This document shows, piece after piece, positions 13,911-62,780 of a stretch of DNA of 64,000 nt (the first letter of the stretch is position 1; the number at the start of each line of letters is the position of its first letter). The translations under genes and the position numbers were made by a program. The DNA is from an uncultured Gemmatimonadota bacterium (GTDB lineage Bacteria; Gemmatimonadota; Gemmatimonadetes; Gemmatimonadales; Gemmatimonadaceae). The notes below the pieces were generated by a model. That model was not told the DNA's origin and made no database searches. It saw nothing but the letters and a program-made list of their open reading frames with translations. The stretch spans positions 677,344-741,343 of the forward strand of contig CADEFN010000002.1 of the NCBI GenBank assembly GCA_902826615.1, given 5' to 3'.

Positions 13911-15554
13911 TCAGGCCGTCGCCACCGCCGCCGCGCGCTGCAACCCGAGTTCCTCCACCGCCAGCTCCCGCATGCGGAACTTCTGGATCTTCCCCGTCAC
14001 CGTCATGGGATAGCTGTCGACAAACTTGACGTAGCGGGGGATTTTGTACGTCGCAATACGATCCTTGCAGTACGTCTGCAGCTCCTCCGTGAGCAGTGTT
14101 GTGCCGGGACGCAACACCACCCACACCATCACCTCTTCGCCATACCGCTCACTCGGCACGCCAATCACCTGTGCGTCCTGGATGGCAGGATGTGTGTAGA
14201 GAAATTCCTCCACCTCGCGCGGATAGATGTTCTCTCCGCCACGAATGATCATGTCCTTGATGCGACCGACGATGTTGACATAGCCCTCGTCGTCCATCGT
14301 GGCGAGGTCGCCAGTGTGCATCCATCCAGCCGAGTCGATGGCACGCGCCGTCGCCGCCTCGTCATTCCAGTAGCCGAGCATCACCGAGTACCCGCGGGTG
14401 CAGAGTTCACCCTTCTCGTGCCGGGCGAGCACGGCACCACTCTCGGGGTGCACGATTTTCACCTCGACATGCGGATGCACACGCCCAACCGTTCCGACCC
14501 GTTTGTCCAGCGGATCGTCGAGCGCGCTCTGCGTTGACACCGGCGAGGTCTCGGTCATGCCGTAGCAGATAGTGACTTCGTGCATGTGCATCTCCTTCTG
14601 CACCTGTTTCATCACCTCCACAGGACAAGGCGAACCAGCCATGATCCCGGTGCGCAGCGTCGAGAGGTCGTATTTCGCAAAATCCGGAAGCGCCAGCTCG
14701 GCGATGAACATGCTGGGCACACCATACAACGCCGTGCAACGTTCGGCCTCCACCGTGGCCAGCGCCTGAGCGGCGTCGAAGGCCTCGCCGGGGATCACCA
14801 TGCACGCCCCATGGGTGGTACAGGCGAGATTCCCCAGCACCATCCCGAAGCAGTGATAAAACGGGACGGGAATGCACACACGATCGGCAGACGTATATCG
14901 CAGCGCCTCACCGATGAAGAAGCCGTTGTTGAGGATGTTGTGATGCGAGAGCGTCGCACCCTTGGGAAAGCCGGTGGTGCCCGAGGTGTACTGGATGTTG
15001 ATGGGGTCGTCGAATTGCAGCGAGCCTTCACGCGCAGCAAGGACCTCGTCAGGCACCGCTTCCCCGGCACTCAGCAGCTCCTCCCACCCGCTGTCGAGGA
15101 CGATATCCCGTTCCAGCTGTGGGCAGTTTGCCCGCACCGCCGCCAGCATCCCGGTGTAGTCCGATGCTCTGAACGCCCTGGCCAGCAGCAGGAGTCGAGC
15201 CCCCGACTGGTTCAGCGCGTACTCCAACTCCGCGGTTTTGTAGGCGGGGTTGATGTTGACGAGGATCGCGCCCATGCGCGCCGTCGCGAATTGGGCAATC
15301 ACCCACTCATACCTGTTGGGCGACCAGATCCCCACGCGGTCGCGCGGCTGAATACCCAGGGCCATAAGCCCTTTGGCGAGGCGGGTTGTCTGATCCCAAA
15401 GCTGCCGATACGTGAGTCGAACGCCCTGCGACTGCACCACCAGGGCGTCGCGATCGCCATGCAGCTCAACGGTGCGACGCAGGTTCTCGCCGATGGTCTC
15501 GCCCAGGAGCGGATGCGAGGCGAGACCATGGATGTACGACAGCACTGGAGTCAC
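13911..15554 (-). CDS. Fatty-acyl-CoA synthetase (AMP-forming, ACSF2-like)
   Basis: This is a 547-residue ANL-superfamily ligase that activates a carboxylic acid as acyl-AMP and then acyl-CoA, in the cytoplasm. The P-loop-like motif [11 protein letters not shown] is at 189-199. The GYSVMLGYW and GWMHTGDLA motifs and the C-terminal catalytic Lys in [11 protein letters not shown] are all present. The overall sequence ([35 protein letters not shown]) is typical of medium/long-chain fatty-acid ligases of the FadD/ACSF2 group. It starts 3 bp after the stop of the cytochrome/copper protein gene, so the two are probably in one transcript although their functions are not obviously linked. No other beta-oxidation gene is in the window. 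Confidence 0.9.
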
Positions 15555-15557
15555 CGA

Positions 15558-16844
15558 CTATGGCCGCAGCCGACGGCTATCGATGGTGTACAGGAAGGCC
15601 GAGAACTGCATCTCCTCCCAGGTCTGATCCCCCCAGCGCACGTCGACCTTGGGATCAGGGTTTGCCGGGTTGGCCGCCGAGTTGTCGTACCAGGCCGTCG
15701 CTTCGATCTTCGCGCCCGCCGGTATCACCAGCGGCTTGGCAAACATGTAATACGTCTGCCAGTTGAAGTCATAGTTAGGCACGGAGAGAATCGGTTCGAT
15801 GCGTCCGTCGGGATGCACCAGGCGGTACGCCCACTTTTTGCCCCGCAAATGTGTATGCGGCAAAATGCCCCAGATCTTTGCGCTCTCCTTGAAGCCCACC
15901 TCGGACGGCACAGCAGTGTTTGGCGAACCCGCGGGAAGCACAAACGCACCATTGCTGAACGCGGTCGCCAGCAATTCCTCGGCGGGCGGCTCCTTGGCAA
16001 AAACAAAACCCACCCGGCTCTTGTCCTTCATCTCGTGGCCGTGGGCGGTGTAGTGCATCTGCAGCGTCAGCACGGAACCGGCGGCCACCTTGAGCGCGGT
16101 CCCGGCGGGAAAGACCTGACCATCCGTGCCCGGCACAAGTCCGGCAATCATGGGACCGGTGCGGCGCCGCGGACGATTGGGATCAGGGGGTGGCGGCGGC
16201 TCCTGATGGTCTTCGCGGTACACCAGAACCGACGGCTGTCTCGGTGTGCCCGGGGCCGGGGCCGGTGGGCGCGCATACACAATCACATGATGCACCACCT
16301 CGCGCGCACTCGGCAGAATCTCGATCGCCTGCACCCACTTGTCTTCGGTGAAGTTGGTGGGGATCTCGATATACTGATATTCGATGGTCCCCTTGGCCGG
16401 CACCTGAAAGGACTCCGGCATCTCGAGAATCACGTCGGGTTTGCCGATCGACCACTCCGTTGCGTACACAGGCGCCGGTGGTAGGTCTTTCACGTCGCCT
16501 TCCGGCGCACCCGCCTGCAGCCAGCCGGCAATCGTCTTCTTTTCGGCCTCGGTCAGGTGCCGCTCATTGCTGAACGTGCCATGCGGCGCATCTGCGTGCC
16601 ACGGCGGCATGTAACCCGTGCCGATGGCATCGCCAATGTCCGCTGCGGCTGCGTAGGCCTCCTTGTATGTCATCAGTGACATCGGGCCGATTCCACCCGT
16701 CCGGTGGCAGCTCGTGCAGCTTTTATAGAGGATGGGCGCGACGTGTTTGCTGTACGTCGGGGCATCGCTGTGCGGCTGGGCGCCGAGGGTCGAGGTCAAC
16801 CCCGCAAGAACGATGGAGGCAAGGAGAAACGGGCGGCTGTTCAT
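15558..16844 (-). CDS. Cytochrome c domain fused to PHM-like type II copper monooxygenase domain
   Basis: This is a 428-residue exported protein with signal peptide about 1-22. An N-terminal class I cytochrome c-like domain has CTSCH at 43-47 and a likely axial Met79 in GYMPPW. It is followed by a two-lobed domain like eukaryotic peptidylglycine/dopamine copper monooxygenases. All six copper ligands can be aligned: His185-His186 and His264 for the first copper, then His330, His332 and Met412 for the second. The fused heme could supply the electrons that ascorbate gives in animals. This is inference, as is any monooxygenase activity. ATG 16844 is preferred over the 56-residue upstream extension, which lacks a signal. 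It is divergent from the zinc protease gene. A paralogue with the same plan lies at 61428-62780. Confidence 0.8.
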   Translation of the reverse strand: MNSRPFLLASIVLAGLTSTLGAQPHSDAPTYSKHVAPILYKSCTSCHRTGGIGPMSLMTYKEAYAAAADIGDAIGTGYMPPWHADAPHGTFSNERHLTEAEKKTIAGWLQAGAPEGDVKDLPPAPVYATEWSIGKPDVILEMPESFQVPAKGTIEYQYIEIPTNFTEDKWVQAIEILPSAREVVHHVIVYARPPAPAPGTPRQPSVLVYREDHQEPPPPPDPNRPRRRTGPMIAGLVPGTDGQVFPAGTALKVAAGSVLTLQMHYTAHGHEMKDKSRVGFVFAKEPPAEELLATAFSNGAFVLPAGSPNTAVPSEVGFKESAKIWGILPHTHLRGKKWAYRLVHPDGRIEPILSVPNYDFNWQTYYMFAKPLVIPAGAKIEATAWYDNSAANPANPDPKVDVRWGDQTWEEMQFSAFLYTIDSRRLRP

Positions 16845-16981: not shown

Positions 16982-19393
16982 ATGTCTCACCTGTCCCCCT
17001 TTGCCATGTCACGAACGCTCGCCAAAGCGCTGGCCCTCCTGCTCCTCCCCCTCGCCCTCCCTGCCCAGGAGGCCCCCTTCATTGGGGTTCGGGTGGACCA
17101 GGACCGCAACAAGGTCCTGCTCGATGTCACCCAGGATCGGGTGGGCAAGGATTTCCTCCATCAGAGTGTGCTCGCCACGGGCGGCGGCGCTGCCCCCCTG
17201 GGGCTCGACCGCGGCCAGACGGGGGGCAGCGTGGTGGTGCGCCTCGAACGACGCGGCAAACGCCTGGTACTGGTTCGCGACAACTGGAACGCACGAGCCA
17301 TCGGCGCCGACGAGGCTGGCCAGCGTGGCGCGGCCGAAGCCTTTGCTACCTCGGTCATCGCCTGGTTTCCCATCGAATCTGAGGCGAATGGGGTGATGGT
17401 CGCCGACGCGACGTCCCTCTTTCTCTCCGACACCTATGGTATCGCCGAGACCCTGCGCCGCTCCCAGCAGGGGACGGCACGTGTGGATGCCAATCGCAGC
17501 TGGATCGACCCCGCGCGCACGAAGGCCTTCCCACGCAACACCGAAATCCACGCCGTCCTCACCTTTGGCGTAGACAACCCGGGTCAGGCGCTGCGGCGTG
17601 GGGCGCCCGATGCAGCGTCGCCCACCTTCGAGGTGCATCACTCCCTGGTAGCGCTACCCGATCCCCAGGGATTCCGCCCTCGTGTCGCCGACTCGCGCAC
17701 GGGATTGTTTGGCGGTCCCTTCAACGACTTCGGACAGACATACGAAGGGATCTATCGGGGCGGTAACACCGCTCGCTGGCGCCTGGTGCCAAAGGATCCC
17801 GCCGCCTACATGCGCGGTGAGCTCACGGAGCCCATCACGCCAATCGTCTACCACCTCGATCCCGCCATTCCCGAGCCCTATCGCTCGGCCTTCCGCGAAG
17901 GGGGGATGTGGTGGAACAAGGTCTTCGAAGGAGCGGGCTGGAAAAACGCCTTCCAGGTGCGTGACCTTCCGGCGGGCGCCGACCCGATGGACGCCCGTTA
18001 CACCATGATCTACTGGGTGCATCGCAATATTCCCGGCCCGTCGGTCGGCCCATCCCTTTCCGATCCGCGCACCGGTGAAATCGTTCGCACCGTCGTGCGC
18101 ATGGATTCGTGGCGTTCGCTCATTGACTACAACATCTATGCGGGCTTGTTGCCTGCGGCTGGACCCGGCGGCCTCAATGTGCCCGCCGATCAGTTCGTCG
18201 CCATGCGGCGTCGTCAACACGTGGCCCACGAAATTGGTCACACGCTTGGCATGTCACACAACTACATCGCACACGCTCAGGGCCGCTCGAGTGTGATGGA
18301 CTATCCCTTCCCGCTCATCTCTGTGGATGCTCGCGGTACGCTCGATCTCAGCAAGGCCTACGCGCCCTTTGCAGGTGCGTGGGACTCACTGGCCATTCGG
18401 TACGGACACAGCTGGTACCCCGACGAAGCCAGCGAAAAAGCCGGGCTCGCGAAGATCATCAAGGAGATGCTCGATCGCGACGTGCGCTTTGTCGCCGACC
18501 AGCACGCCGATGCGTCGGGTTCCATTCCCGAGGTCACGCGCTGGGTCGAAGGGAAAACCATGTTCGAAGCCGTCGAACGCACCTCGGCCGTGCGTCGTCT
18601 GGCCATCGACAAGTTCGACGAACGGGCGATCAAGCCGGGTGAGCCGATGTACCTGCTCAACATGCGCTTTGCCCACGTCTATTTGCATCACCGGTATTCG
18701 CTCGAAGGGCTGGTGAAATACGTGGGTGGGATGGACTTCCGGTACGCCATGCGTGGTGACGGGCAGACGCCCACCACCATCCTCCCCGCTGCGTCGCAGC
18801 GACGCGCGTTAGGCATGGCCCTCGACGCCCTCGAACCCGCACAACTTGCGGTGCCCGAGCGGGTGATGGCCCTCATTCCTCCCACACCCTATGGTGGCGA
18901 CGACTACTTCGAGTGGATCGGGTCGGCGGGTGGCACCTCCTTCGACCAGATCTCGCTTGCTGGTGGCGTGGCCACCGAGGTCATCGAGGGACTCCTGCAC
19001 CGCGAACGCGCCGCACGGGTGGTGCAGTTCGCCGCGCGCGACGCCACGCTTCCGACGCTCGACGAGGTGATGACGCAAATTGTGCAGCGCACCTGGGGAG
19101 CGCCGGCCGCCGCCAACGCCAACGCGCAGGCACTGCGCCGAACGGTGCAGCGCGTGGTGCTCAACACGCTCCTCGATCGCGCTGGTGACCGTTTGGCTCT
19201 TGCCGAGGTGCGGCAGGCCGCCGAGTGGCATCTGCAGCAGCTCGATTCGCGCCTGGCCGCAATGACCGGCGGAACACCAGCCGACCGTGCTCTGCGCGCC
19301 TCGGCTCGTCGCGAAATCGAGGCCTACTTTGACGGAGACGATGACCCGGCGAAACGCTCGCGTTTTGCGGTCATTCCACTTCCCTGGCCGTAG
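16982..19393 (+). CDS. Zinc-dependent metalloprotease (DUF5117/DUF4953 type)
   Basis: This is an 803-residue exported metalloprotease. A signal peptide of about 29 residues ends near LPAQE. An ATG at 17006 is an alternative start giving the same signal, but GGGGGT lies just upstream of 16982. The zinc motif is HEIGHTLGMSH at 416-426 (HExxHxxGxxH, metzincin type), with the Met-turn SVMDYP shortly after. The long N-terminal beta-rich region and the C-terminal helical region match the large bacterial proteases annotated with DUF5117, DUF5118 and DUF4953. These are common in Gemmatimonadota and Bacteroidota and are thought to degrade extracellular protein. The gene stands alone, with a cloverleaf repeat 25 bp after its stop. 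CGTTAGG at 18807 encodes Leu-Gly. Confidence 0.88.
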   Translation: MSHLSPFAMSRTLAKALALLLLPLALPAQEAPFIGVRVDQDRNKVLLDVTQDRVGKDFLHQSVLATGGGAAPLGLDRGQTGGSVVVRLERRGKRLVLVRDNWNARAIGADEAGQRGAAEAFATSVIAWFPIESEANGVMVADATSLFLSDTYGIAETLRRSQQGTARVDANRSWIDPARTKAFPRNTEIHAVLTFGVDNPGQALRRGAPDAASPTFEVHHSLVALPDPQGFRPRVADSRTGLFGGPFNDFGQTYEGIYRGGNTARWRLVPKDPAAYMRGELTEPITPIVYHLDPAIPEPYRSAFREGGMWWNKVFEGAGWKNAFQVRDLPAGADPMDARYTMIYWVHRNIPGPSVGPSLSDPRTGEIVRTVVRMDSWRSLIDYNIYAGLLPAAGPGGLNVPADQFVAMRRRQHVAHEIGHTLGMSHNYIAHAQGRSSVMDYPFPLISVDARGTLDLSKAYAPFAGAWDSLAIRYGHSWYPDEASEKAGLAKIIKEMLDRDVRFVADQHADASGSIPEVTRWVEGKTMFEAVERTSAVRRLAIDKFDERAIKPGEPMYLLNMRFAHVYLHHRYSLEGLVKYVGGMDFRYAMRGDGQTPTTILPAASQRRALGMALDALEPAQLAVPERVMALIPPTPYGGDDYFEWIGSAGGTSFDQISLAGGVATEVIEGLLHRERAARVVQFAARDATLPTLDEVMTQIVQRTWGAPAAANANAQALRRTVQRVVLNTLLDRAGDRLALAEVRQAAEWHLQQLDSRLAAMTGGTPADRALRASARREIEAYFDGDDDPAKRSRFAVIPLPWP

Positions 19394-19522: not shown

Positions 19523-20878
19523 TTACCTGATGACCTTCACCTCGTTCATCCGCCGTACCGGCGAGACGTAGGCACTCACCAGACTCTCCAGCCCGTCCGC
19601 GCCGACCGCCGCCACACCGAACACCCAGTCGTCGATGGACATGCCCGTCATGGTGTGCGTGGTGGTGTTGCCCACAACGCGGGACTGCTGCCAGTCGTTT
19701 TCCCAGGCGTCGCGCCAGTACACCTTGTAGGCCACGGCGCCGGGCACCTCACGCCAGGCCAGCGTGGCGTCGTAGCCCGACGGCAGTCGCGACAAGGTTG
19801 CGCCGCGCTCCGCTGCCACAATCGGTGCGGTCGGTGCCAGCGCCAGTGATCCCGCCCCCGCCGCATTCACGCGTGCATTCTGCGCCAGGTACTTGAAGTC
19901 CACTCCCTCGATTTTGTCTTCCGCTGTGTGCTGGCGGGAGAAGTTCTCATTCGACTCGCGAAAGACGGCCGCCGGGTAACCGTGTGCGGTAAACGACGAG
20001 TGATCGCTGCCACGTCCAAAGCGATCTTCGCGCGCCATGAGACGAATGCGATGGGCCGGCACGTAGGTGGCAGCTGCTCGCGCGATGTAGCGGGCCAGCG
20101 ACCGGGACATGCCATCTTCGGGACCCAGCGAATACACTCGCACGCTTTCGTTGTCGATCATCCCGTTGCCGCCCTGCGAGTTGCCGACGATGTCGTTGTT
20201 GAACATCCCCTCCACCACACCCTTGGAGGCGGCAAGCGCCTGCGCATGGGCCGACGACCCGATCAATCCCTGTTCTTCACCGGCCCAGCAGATAAACACG
20301 AGCGTGGCGTCGAATTCGAGCCCGCTCTCGGCGAACACACGCGCCAGCTCCATGGTGAGCACCGTGCCACTGCCATCGTCGTTGGCACCCGGTGCATCGA
20401 TGTCGTGATTGAACTCGCGGCTGGCCTGCGGGTTGTTGCCACCGGAGTTGAGGGCGAGCTGCCCACCCGAGCCAAGGTTGACTGTGTCGTAGTGCCCGGT
20501 GATGTAGACGCGGCGAGGTGAGCGTCCCGGCAGCACCGCCATCACATTGCGCAGCTCGACCTCACGGGTGATCCGGCCCTGGGGCGCGATGCGATGCGAG
20601 TCATACGACACCTGCAACTTCGGTCCCGATCGCTTGAGTTCGTCGAAAATCCACCGCCTGGCCGCACCAATGCCTCGGGTGGCCGACATCGTGTCGGACA
20701 ACGTCGAGCGGGTTCCGAACGAAACAAGCTTCTGTGTCAGGGCGCGCAAACGGTCTTCCGAGACCGCTGCCACCAGTTTGGCGATTCGCGGATCAGCGTC
20801 GGGACGTGCCGCCTGCGCACCTGCCGCGTGGATGGCGGAAACACTGATCAGCGCGGCGAGGGCAAGTGAGCGTTGCAT
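19523..20878 (-). CDS. M28-family aminopeptidase with C-terminal fibronectin-like domain
   Basis: This is a 451-residue secreted di-zinc aminopeptidase. The ATG at 20878 starts a signal peptide (MQRSLALAAL to AGAQA). The upstream frame overlaps the M50 gene and is rejected. Zinc ligands and catalytic residues of family M28 are visible: His129 in GHYDTVN, Asp167 in GANDDGSG, Glu201-Glu202 in AGEEQG, Asp229 in NNDIVGN and a late His in SDHSSFTAHG. The last 90 residues form a fibronectin III-like domain (ATLAWREVPG to AAVGADGLES), usual in this subgroup. It is the last gene of a minus-strand set: DUF2167 protein, M50 protein, then this gene, with gaps of 2 and 26 bp. Confidence 0.88.
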   Translation of the reverse strand: MQRSLALAALISVSAIHAAGAQAARPDADPRIAKLVAAVSEDRLRALTQKLVSFGTRSTLSDTMSATRGIGAARRWIFDELKRSGPKLQVSYDSHRIAPQGRITREVELRNVMAVLPGRSPRRVYITGHYDTVNLGSGGQLALNSGGNNPQASREFNHDIDAPGANDDGSGTVLTMELARVFAESGLEFDATLVFICWAGEEQGLIGSSAHAQALAASKGVVEGMFNNDIVGNSQGGNGMIDNESVRVYSLGPEDGMSRSLARYIARAAATYVPAHRIRLMAREDRFGRGSDHSSFTAHGYPAAVFRESNENFSRQHTAEDKIEGVDFKYLAQNARVNAAGAGSLALAPTAPIVAAERGATLSRLPSGYDATLAWREVPGAVAYKVYWRDAWENDWQQSRVVGNTTTHTMTGMSIDDWVFGVAAVGADGLESLVSAYVSPVRRMNEVKVIR

Positions 20879-20904
20879 GCAGAGCACTGGGATGAAAGGA
20901 GAGA

Positions 20905-21618
20905 TCAGCCGTACGACGCACCAGGGTACACCAAACTGACAGCCGCTGTGAACACCGGCTGGAAGATGAGCGGCACCACCTTCCACGAAATGATGATTCC
21001 CACCCACGCCAGCATCGGCGTTCCCCAGAGAAACTCCTGATAACGCCCCACCAGACCCTCCGGCATGAGCAGCGTAATGGCGGCGCTGCCATCCAGCGGT
21101 GGCAGGGGGATCATGTTGAACACCGCCAGCAGCAGGTTGAGCGAGAAGACCACACCGAGGATGATCCCCACGGTTCCCCACGCGGCGCTCCCGGCCGACT
21201 GCGCGATTTCACCAAAGTGAATCGTCGCCGGTGGCACAAAGACTCCCGCCATGGTGCCGACCCGGAGGATCAAGCCACAAATGATGACAAGCATCAGATT
21301 GGACGCCGGGCCTGCCAGCGCCATCCAGGCGGCACGATCGGGGTGCCGTCGCGCCCAGTTGGGATCGTATGGGGCACTCGCATATCCAAACGGCCACCCG
21401 GTCGCGAGTGCGGTGATCAGTGGCAACACCACCATGCCGATCGGCTCGCGACGGATATGGGGCATGGGATCCAGCGACACCTGTCCCCCAAGGTAGGCCG
21501 TCGGGTCTCCACCACGCAGCGCGGCCCAGGCATGAGCCGCCTCGTGGAGCGTGGTCGAGAAGAGGAAGGCGACAAAATAGAGCAGCGCATCCCCGACGTG
21601 CATTGCCATCTCACCCAT
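20905..21618 (-). CDS. M50-family (site-2-protease-like) membrane metalloprotease
   Basis: This is a 237-residue polytopic membrane protein of the short site-2-protease family. The zinc motif is HEAAHA (His25, Glu26, His29) in the first membrane segment. The third ligand is Asp176 in NMIPLPPLDG, the hallmark second motif. There is no PDZ or CBS domain, so it matches the compact cyanobacterial/Rv-type family whose targets are usually unknown. It starts 2 bp after the DUF2167 gene and is followed after 26 bp by the M28 peptidase, which suggests one transcript. No anti-sigma substrate is encoded beside it. Confidence 0.88.
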   Translation of the reverse strand: MGEMAMHVGDALLYFVAFLFSTTLHEAAHAWAALRGGDPTAYLGGQVSLDPMPHIRREPIGMVVLPLITALATGWPFGYASAPYDPNWARRHPDRAAWMALAGPASNLMLVIICGLILRVGTMAGVFVPPATIHFGEIAQSAGSAAWGTVGIILGVVFSLNLLLAVFNMIPLPPLDGSAAITLLMPEGLVGRYQEFLWGTPMLAWVGIIISWKVVPLIFQPVFTAAVSLVYPGASYG

Positions 21619-61427: not shown

Positions 61428-62780
61428 TCAGTAGAAGTACCCGAAGATGATTCCCATTTCGTCGGCGCTGGTGAGGCCGAAGCGGATGGTGCGGTCGGTG
61501 GTGTTGTTGTAGGTGATCTCCGACCGCAGTCCCTCTCCGCGACGGAGCACGATGGGCTGCGAGTAGTTGATGATGTCGGGATGCGCCCAGTCCGTGGTGG
61601 TGTAGACAACCTCCTCGTTGCGCGGCCCGCCTACAATTCGGACCACGAACCGCTCTCCCCGCTCATGCATGTGCGATGTGAGCATGAACACCGTCATCGA
61701 CGAGTCGCTGACCGTGAAGGTCTTCGTGAGCGTGACGCGGCTACGCGGGGGAAGGTTGATGTCGGTGTTCCCCATGTTGAGTGTCCGGGCCACGCGACGC
61801 ACGGCCGACTGCGGCACGGTGTGCAGATTGGCGTAGGCCTCGCCCGTGATGGGCGTGGTGGTGCGATTCACATAGTGCGAGTTGAGATCGATGGCCCCCT
61901 GCGCAGGAAGCCGCAGCGCCACGCCGTCGGGAAACCGGTAGTCCGACGACGGTGTCTGCGTGCCGGCAAAAAAGACGTGGAACCCCATCGGCAGCATGTT
62001 CACAAAATTGAGCGATCCATCGGCATTGCGGATGTCGCGCACCACGTTGAATGCCGGGCGAATGAACGACGGGATGTTGTCAAATGTGTACAGCAGCAAG
62101 TGATGCGAGTTCGAGCGCATCCGTGTTTCGATGCGGTTCACATACAGGTCACCGCTGTTGTTCACCTGGCGATAGAGGAACAACTCCCGTTCGAAGTTGG
62201 GGTTCACACTGAACGCGTCGATCTTGAGCTGCACCCCGCTGGCTGGTGGAGCCAGTGGGGCAAAGGCCGTGGGAACGGGTCGAGTACGATCGGCAAGCAC
62301 CATCGTGTCGACCACACTTCCCTTCTCCGGCGCACCGGCCTCGATCCAGCGCCGGATGTACTCGAGCTGGCCATTGTAGACAGGGTCGCCGCCTAACGGC
62401 ATGATCGATCCGTAGCCGGCCGAGTGGTGGCCGTCAGCGATGACCAGTTTGTGGTAGAGGAGGCTCGAGTCGGCCTTGAAGGGTTTCACGCGCTGCAGGC
62501 CATCCGATTTGGCGGATGTATTCCTGGGCGCGACGCCAACCAGGTTGGCGTATGCCACCGCCCGGTCGAGCACGAGCCCCGACGATGTCGCGAAGGCGGT
62601 GCCGGCGGTGTGACATCCGGCGGTGCAGGTTGGTGCGAGGATCTGTGCCTGGATGCGGTCGAAGGTTCCGGCGATAGCCCCGGGCGGGGGCGTCACCTCG
62701 TTGGACCCCGTGTTGTCGCCGCAGGCACCCAGGCTGACCAGCAGCAGCCACACGATTCTTGTTGGTCTTCGTTGAGTCAT
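61428..62780 (-). CDS. Cytochrome c-like domain fused to PHM-like copper domain, lipoprotein
   Basis: This is a 450-residue lipoprotein; ATG 62780 has GAGAGGAG three bases upstream and gives lipobox LGAC (Cys20). The heme site is CTAGCH at 52-57, that is CxxxCH with one extra residue. The usual helical domain follows (GSIMPLGGDP with a candidate Met ligand, LEYIRRWIEAGAP). The C-terminal two-lobed copper domain keeps all six PHM ligands: His226-His227 (SNSHHLLL), His302 (NSHYVN), His370 and His372 (SHMHERG) and Met442 (SADEMG). It is paralogous in plan to the protein at 15558-16844 but only distantly similar. It diverges from the amidohydrolase gene. CGTTAGG at 62392 encodes Leu-Gly. Confidence 0.78.
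   Translation of the reverse strand: MTQRRPTRIVWLLLVSLGACGDNTGSNEVTPPPGAIAGTFDRIQAQILAPTCTAGCHTAGTAFATSSGLVLDRAVAYANLVGVAPRNTSAKSDGLQRVKPFKADSSLLYHKLVIADGHHSAGYGSIMPLGGDPVYNGQLEYIRRWIEAGAPEKGSVVDTMVLADRTRPVPTAFAPLAPPASGVQLKIDAFSVNPNFERELFLYRQVNNSGDLYVNRIETRMRSNSHHLLLYTFDNIPSFIRPAFNVVRDIRNADGSLNFVNMLPMGFHVFFAGTQTPSSDYRFPDGVALRLPAQGAIDLNSHYVNRTTTPITGEAYANLHTVPQSAVRRVARTLNMGNTDINLPPRSRVTLTKTFTVSDSSMTVFMLTSHMHERGERFVVRIVGGPRNEEVVYTTTDWAHPDIINYSQPIVLRRGEGLRSEITYNNTTDRTIRFGLTSADEMGIIFGYFY

Follow-up and report, generated by a model that had tools for sequence, protein, structure and literature searches.

Peptidylglycine alpha-hydroxylating monooxygenase (PHM) and dopamine beta-hydroxylase (DBH) share the copper type II monooxygenase fold, and animals depend on them for amidated hormones and noradrenaline. 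O2 binding and hydroxylation are ascribed to CuM and electron transfer to CuH, with two electrons coming from ascorbate (passages of PMC4846438). The copper sites lie about 11-14 Å apart in open structures and about 4-5 Å apart in the closed DBH chain. According to the portions of PMC4846438 and PMC6123673 that describe them, DBH chain A and PHM 6ala (H108A-citrate) are closed, whereas DBH chain B has the open form. The route by which electrons reach these coppers, and pass between them, is debated.

LPMOs have another fold and contain one copper. Bacterial c-type cytochrome domains have been studied as donors to these copper monooxygenases: CjX183 reduces them (PMC8981238), and for the related TtX183 domains it is suggested that O2, and not the LPMO, receives the electrons (passages of PMC10916295). 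The protein described here, P0001, resembles these systems in its bacterial c-type cytochrome domain but joins it to a dicopper core in a single chain. Cellobiose dehydrogenase likewise has a heme domain inside a secreted enzyme, but the heme of its cytochrome is b-type, unlike that of P0001, and the partner is a flavin enzyme. The fold of that cytochrome equals that of the DBH DOMON domain, as stated in a passage of PMC4846438. Among the papers listed by word searches of open-licence literature, there was no description of a cytochrome c/PHM-domain fusion (annotators may have seen such proteins), and the main text of PMC6529398 holds no words beginning bacteri-, prokaryot- or archaea. As far as this literature goes, the fusion is undescribed, while the copper domain is already recognised by Pfam.

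Domain layout and predicted fold of P0001

P0001 is encoded on the minus strand of the 64,000-nucleotide stretch that was analysed (the window), from an ATG at 16844 to a stop at 15558. A GTG at 17012 would start a longer ORF, but the product of the ATG start opens with a Sec-type signal peptide, judged by eye. The features of the gene are as follows, the 81 rows being P0001 and 80 relatives.

15558..16844, minus strand: P0001, cytochrome c/dicopper-domain fusion gene, 428 aa (ORF translation, Pfam)
16779..16844, minus strand: probable Sec signal peptide, residues 1-22 (sequence, judged by eye)
16509..16760, minus strand: cytochrome c domain, residues about 29-112 (model pLDDT 87; nearest solved fold PccH)
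16704..16718, minus strand: CTSCH heme-attachment motif, residues 43-47 (C43, C46 and H47 in 81/81 rows)
16608..16610, minus strand: M79 of the MPPW loop, probably the second ligand of the heme iron (conservation)
15561..16442, minus strand: PHM/DBH-like two-lobed copper domain, residues 135-428 (AlphaFold2 model, Foldseek, VIA)
16287..16292, minus strand: H185-H186, predicted CuH ligands (conservation, profile alignments)
16053..16055, minus strand: H264, predicted third CuH ligand, in a QxHY motif (conservation, profile alignments)
15849..15857, minus strand: H330-T-H332, predicted CuM ligands (conservation, profile alignments)
15609..15611, minus strand: M412, predicted CuM methionine, in an EEM motif (conservation; invariant in 23 rows including a distant paralog)

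Pfam only just recognises the protein through PF03712 (23.1 bits, cut-off 23); PF01082 (14.8 against a cut-off of 30) and Cytochrome_CBB3 (19.4 against 27) are both below threshold, and a search of NCBIfam returned no family. Since the only match of the single sequence in the PDB by phmmer was an insignificant cytochrome, matching P0001 to solved structures needed profiles.

As for the copper domain, its structure was modelled with AlphaFold2. Before structural alignments, rows that contained X or were more than 85% identical were removed, leaving 70 of the 80 relatives. The model of residues 24-428, from 71 sequences, covers both domains with a pLDDT of 94.1 and a pTM of 0.90, and it predicts two β-sandwich lobes with PHM/DBH topology. 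When it was searched with Foldseek, ranks 1-31 were all DBH or PHM (best E 1.3e-13). In VIA it superposes on DBH chain A (4zel) with a Z of 23.1 and an RMSD of 2.7 Å over 272 residues, on PHM 6ala with a Z of 22.7 (2.5 Å, 249 residues) and on PHM 5wja_D with a Z of 21.1 (2.8 Å, 250 residues), other PHM entries giving Z 16-19 and 3.6-4.9 Å. The listing down to Z 9.0, where the first unrelated fold stands, consists of 26 entries, each of them DBH or PHM. The two best VIA matches, DBH chain A and 6ala, are closed forms, and the Foldseek TM score is 0.51 for DBH chain A versus 0.45 for chain B. Together this is a hint that the model is most like the closed arrangement, and a hint only because the model was built without metals.

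Sequence profiles lead to the same enzymes (DBH, E 5.7e-11; PHM, E about 5e-8), and their alignments place HH, QxHY and HxH, which together hold five ligands, in register with both. The PDB profile alignments end short of the methionine, and M412 was assigned from conservation and the EEM/DEM motif. On this alignment evidence, three His for CuH and two His plus Met for CuM are present in P0001. Their spacings are 78 (second His of HH to H264), 66 (H264 to H330) and 80 (H332 to M412); the corresponding distances in the DBH numbering given in PMC4846438 are 70, 79 and 73. The initial annotation had proposed, from the letters alone, a cytochrome c domain followed by a PHM-type copper domain with all six copper ligands, and each part of this is borne out: CxxCH and M79 are kept in 81/81 rows, DBH and PHM can be superposed on the model (2.5-2.7 Å, 249-272 residues), and the five histidines are present in 81/81 rows and the methionine in 80/81, the other being an X. 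Its further suggestion, that the heme may be an internal electron donor for a bacterial copper monooxygenase, stays at the level of inference, so that the annotation is supported in part. The structure prediction and PHM superposition that it had suggested as a check, read together with the profile register, gave no sign that the six residues fail to cluster into two copper sites.

P0001 and human DBH (4zel) share the two-lobed copper core, and each has an extra N-terminal domain. In DBH, however, that domain is a DOMON domain, and the enzyme also has a dimerization domain, contains 15 cysteines and takes its electrons from ascorbate (sections of PMC4846438). The extra domain of P0001 is a cytochrome c domain, and its cysteines number two. 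In the DOMON domain, the pocket search reported in a section of that paper found no binding pocket. The cysteines of P0001 are Cys43 and Cys46 only, both inside the heme motif, so the disulfides of the PHM/DBH catalytic core are absent. The likeness to PHM (6ala, 1phm) extends to Gln170, which we take to be part of the PHM electron path: its equivalent, Q262 of P0001, is found in 72/81 rows. In contrast, columns 328, 414 and 416, chosen by counting from the aligned ligands as the places of PHM Arg240, Asn316 and Tyr318, are variable and hold other residues. Since these three are the peptide-anchoring residues of PHM, P0001 probably acts on a different substrate, which would be something other than a glycine-extended peptide. 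Peptide amidation is unlikely, and we rejected a peptide-amidating reading of P0001.

The cytochrome domain was also modelled alone (residues 25-126, pLDDT 87). Its best VIA match is PccH (4rlr), with a Z of 7.4 and an RMSD of 1.9 Å over 75 residues, in a range about which the tool warns. Six rows are listed with Z of at least 2, and going by their titles or known class all of them are cytochromes or else enzymes that carry a c-type heme domain. PccH is also a weak profile match (E 0.054), and Foldseek found nothing significant for the lone domain (best E 1.7); a class I cytochrome c fold is a tentative assignment. This nearest fold, PccH, is a monoheme cytochrome of Geobacter sulfurreducens, which is not known to be fused to a copper enzyme. 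Within the 81 rows, M79 is the one candidate for a second heme ligand that never varies, and with a CxxCH motif and a conserved distal Met the domain has the marks of a His/Met c-type cytochrome, in which M79 would bind the iron. In two blocks of ten residues, the mean pLDDT of the Met loop rises from 65 and 59 in the lone domain to 84 and 79 in the fusion. Because the loop gains about 20 points when the copper domain is present, we read the model as having the heme-ligand loop packed on the copper domain.

Ligand conservation and gene neighbourhood

The 80 relatives are the best of at least 585 encoded in species genomes, found by a scan whose patterns were free of ligand residues but demanded AWYDNS- or YDFNWQT-like stretches. 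C43, C46, H47, M79, H185, H186, H264, H330 and H332 are kept in all 81 rows, and M412 in all except one (L067), where a run of N gives X. W82 is also present throughout, and MPPW is invariant in alignment A4. The relatives are mostly labelled Gemmatimonadota, Acidobacteriota or Planctomycetota, with Hydrogenedentota and Armatimonadota also represented and single relatives labelled Proteobacteria, Pseudomonadales, Cyanobacteria or Acidimicrobiia; homologs occur in records named Roseisolibacter sp. H3M3-2 and Limnoglobus roseus. The ten ligand residues are therefore conserved across at least four phyla, as labelled in the records. They are likewise identical in 31 aligned loci from the phylum of P0001 (L002 and L003 being the P0001 gene twice).

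The window holds a further member of the family.

61428..62780, minus strand: second heme-copper fusion, distant (PF03712 24.1 bits; six ligands align)

Its motifs are CX3CH (CTAGCH), HH, SHY, HMH and DEM, and it keeps all six copper ligands at 19% identity to P0001 in the copper domain. When it is added to the alignment, 11 columns do not vary across 23 rows; the copper ligands make up six of these. By a simple column count that ignores residue composition and relatedness, the chance that six pre-named columns would all be invariant is about 5e-10; judged by these alignments, the ligand pattern of P0001 is not due to chance.

The gene immediately downstream of P0001 is the following.

13911..15554, minus strand: AMP-binding acyl-CoA ligase-like gene (starts 3 nt past the P0001 stop, same strand)

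It is a possible operon partner of P0001 in this genome. Among the relatives compared (L003-L060), a ligase directly downstream of the fusion was absent outside its own locus; homologs were found at L054 (48%, on the same strand but apart from the fusion) and at L045 (26%, nearby, opposite strand). Across 80 loci, many on short contigs, there was no conserved partner: leaving aside the fusion and what we read as its antisense ORFs, the largest flanking family listed occurs in 4/80. The second commonest ORF family, judged by coordinates, is the antisense frame of the fusion gene itself. Since no gene partner is conserved, the neighbourhood suggests neither a donor nor a substrate. On the other side of P0001, the divergent neighbour (16982-19393, plus strand) is a DUF4953/DUF5117 met-zincin, and an M28 peptidase lies further out (19523-21181, minus strand). 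A mobile-element origin was considered and rejected: there was no plasmid match, and none of five viral pattern matches was confirmed. An Rfam search of the window gave no match.

This want of a partner or substrate clue in the 80 loci is what might be expected if P0001 binds, stores or senses copper, with a structural heme and no catalysis, and the loss of copper ligands in some paralogs (see below) fits as well. We nevertheless consider such a role improbable. Even at 19% identity none of the six ligands is lost, and the other invariant columns number only five, a pattern that speaks for a pair of intact metal sites and not for a single binding patch.

Spread of the fusion, added domains and paralogs without copper sites

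A profile search of the host genome (5.9 Mb) found three members of the family: P0001, one on another contig (C13) and the window paralog. Searching with P0001 gave matches in 80 of 200 genomes of the phylum, versus 30 of 200 with PF03712 (20 over the cut-off); Pfam therefore misses part of the family. The profile restricted to the copper domain matched in 18/99 genomes around an acidobacterium and in 31/99 around Limnoglobus roseus. Two genomes of the former set (G281 and G293) show 26 copper-domain matches each, some of which are pieces of one gene.

How general the fusion is can be judged from loci found mainly by copper-domain or Pfam searches (L113-L144 and L145-L219, best matches only), whereas L001-L112 are uninformative on this point because most of them came from searches with complete fusions. 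With the heme motif sought anywhere in the frame, CxnCH is present in 67 of 73 distinct ORFs of L145-L219, which came from the copper-domain-only profile. Four of the remaining six begin at the locus edge and two (L174, L203) look interrupted, on our reading. Were heme-less copper domains common, a profile of the copper domain only would be expected to catch some. In the PF03712 loci (L116-L144; 29, several of which repeat earlier genes), the ligand pattern was found in 26, each with CxnCH upstream in the same frame (26/26), by a regular expression that sometimes caught another HH. The pattern was not shown by L117, L134 and L141. CX4CH motifs occur in L118, L127, L129 and L138. Over all loci, most of them fetched as whole fusions, CxnCH is found in 209/219 ORFs, a set that includes overlapping cuts of some genes. 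Distances within the heme domain go along with those within the copper domain (r 0.55, against at most 0.115 in 500 shuffles), which is consistent with a long joint descent of the two domains. By these sequence searches, the family is a multi-phylum one, and the fusion is common to most of the relatives examined.

Some relatives carry further domains. TPR repeats lie C-terminal to the copper domain in L012, L013, L023 and L016 above the cut-off and in L015 below it (eight proteins scanned). Ten relatives were picked by hand for a long N-terminus.

L110, L094, L084, L109, L087, L063, L073, L100, L112, L111: relatives with a redoxin/AhpC-TSA domain (Pfam)

In these the AhpC-TSA/redoxin domain is N-terminal to the cytochrome, above the Pfam cut-off in 9/10 and below it in L100; L027 and L032 have such a domain above the cut-off too. 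Judged by domain matches, redoxin-fused members are three-domain redox chains in one polypeptide. Peroxygenase chemistry is known from LPMOs, and P0001 could in principle be a peroxide-driven enzyme in which the heme primes Cu(II) to Cu(I) once, H2O2 is the co-substrate and redoxin-fused relatives control peroxide. The redoxin domains in 9 of the 10 picked relatives, and in L027 and L032, would suit this scheme. We think it unlikely, however, because P0001 itself has no redoxin domain and the chemistry would be carried over from a different fold. Moreover, CuH, which simple priming would not need, is conserved, the real departures in 219 ORFs being copper-less paralogs and an HQ variant.

These copper-less, heme-keeping paralogs, found in acidobacterial arrays, are the least expected result of the analysis.

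L064:7930-9201: heme-keeping paralog without copper sites
L066:2410-3696: heme-keeping paralog without copper sites
L068:4273-5421: heme-keeping paralog without copper sites

At each locus the paralog comes after copper-complete fusions in a tandem array, on the strand that they occupy; it retains CLGCH and the Met loop, but its copper sites are gone. Of the six copper ligands, the L064 and L066 paralogs retain the first His of HH and lack the other five (HH to HS, QMHY to QIRY, PHTHLR to PLLFPF, EEM absent). In L068 the first five are gone (QS, VRY, LLF), and the end of the contig cuts the frame off ahead of the Met. Altogether, 16 of 219 rows show apparent ligand losses. Six of these, inspected by eye, come down to truncated frames (L153 twice, L155, L160), an N run (L067) and an alignment slip (L136), and five more (L158, L163, L066, L117, L068) are frames starting at the locus edge. 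The real exceptions in the 219 ORFs are L064, L066, L068, L158 (the L064 gene repeated) and a fusion copy with HQ for the CuH HH (L081:7390-8688), which lies in a four-gene array. That array also holds a shortened cytochrome gene, as does L051 beside a fusion. The copper-less sequences suggest a helper that needs heme and not copper. Since heme-keeping relatives without copper sites exist, the heme may have a copper-independent role.

Proposed electron supply to the copper sites

With moderate confidence we favour a reading of P0001 as a copper monooxygenase-like protein that is secreted and brings its own entry port for electrons, the heme, which would replace ascorbate. On the side of this reading are the conserved ligands, the fold match, the Q262 equivalent of Gln170, the apparent packing of the Met loop, the heme motif in 67 of 73 copper-domain ORFs and the correlated domain distances, with the reduction of LPMOs by CjX183 as a precedent. 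On the other side are the weak fold matches of the lone cytochrome, the want of a conserved gene partner and the copper-less paralogs. In this mechanism, the His/Met c-type cytochrome would take single electrons from a periplasmic donor. Its heme, fixed before the CuH lobe, would feed them one at a time to CuH (H185, H186, H264), and CuH would give the second electron to CuM (H330, H332, M412). CuM would then activate O2 and the substrate would be hydroxylated, with the heme standing in for ascorbate as the electron source. The computation establishes the domain order, the ligand conservation, the fold match and the spread of the fusion; that P0001 is loaded with heme and copper, carries out O2 chemistry and is an active monooxygenase is our inference. 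Electron transfer from heme to copper is, in our view, the best reading of the direction of flow. Heme domains of bacterial periplasmic enzymes often carry electrons outward, and a fructose dehydrogenase cytochrome subunit is among the weak profile matches (E 0.78), but reverse flow, in which the copper domain would oxidise substrate or Cu(I) as a dehydrogenase or oxidase and electrons would leave via the heme to the respiratory chain, has against it a full CuH/CuM ligand set and a PHM/DBH fold typical of O2-activating enzymes, the 26 listed VIA entries with Z over 9.0 being DBH or PHM, and we regard it as quite doubtful.

Beyond heme-to-copper transfer in P0001, a wider proposal is possible, if tentative: a large bacterial PHM/DBH branch would have a built-in His/Met cytochrome c as obligatory donor and a closed, coupled-dicopper state, and the copper-less paralogs of some acidobacterial arrays would be its dedicated electron-relay subunits.

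A coloured, titratable heme tethered to a PHM/DBH core would allow the first electron transfer to be followed optically, without the side reactions of free ascorbate. Within the copper type II monooxygenase fold, the branch with a tethered heme is real and widespread by fold and ligands; its heme may donate electrons, and its members may be catalytic. Such a protein would also suggest that the PHM/DBH fold is a widespread bacterial periplasmic chemistry, with up to 26 matches in a single genome, some of them gene pieces, and that the animal enzymes are one branch of it.
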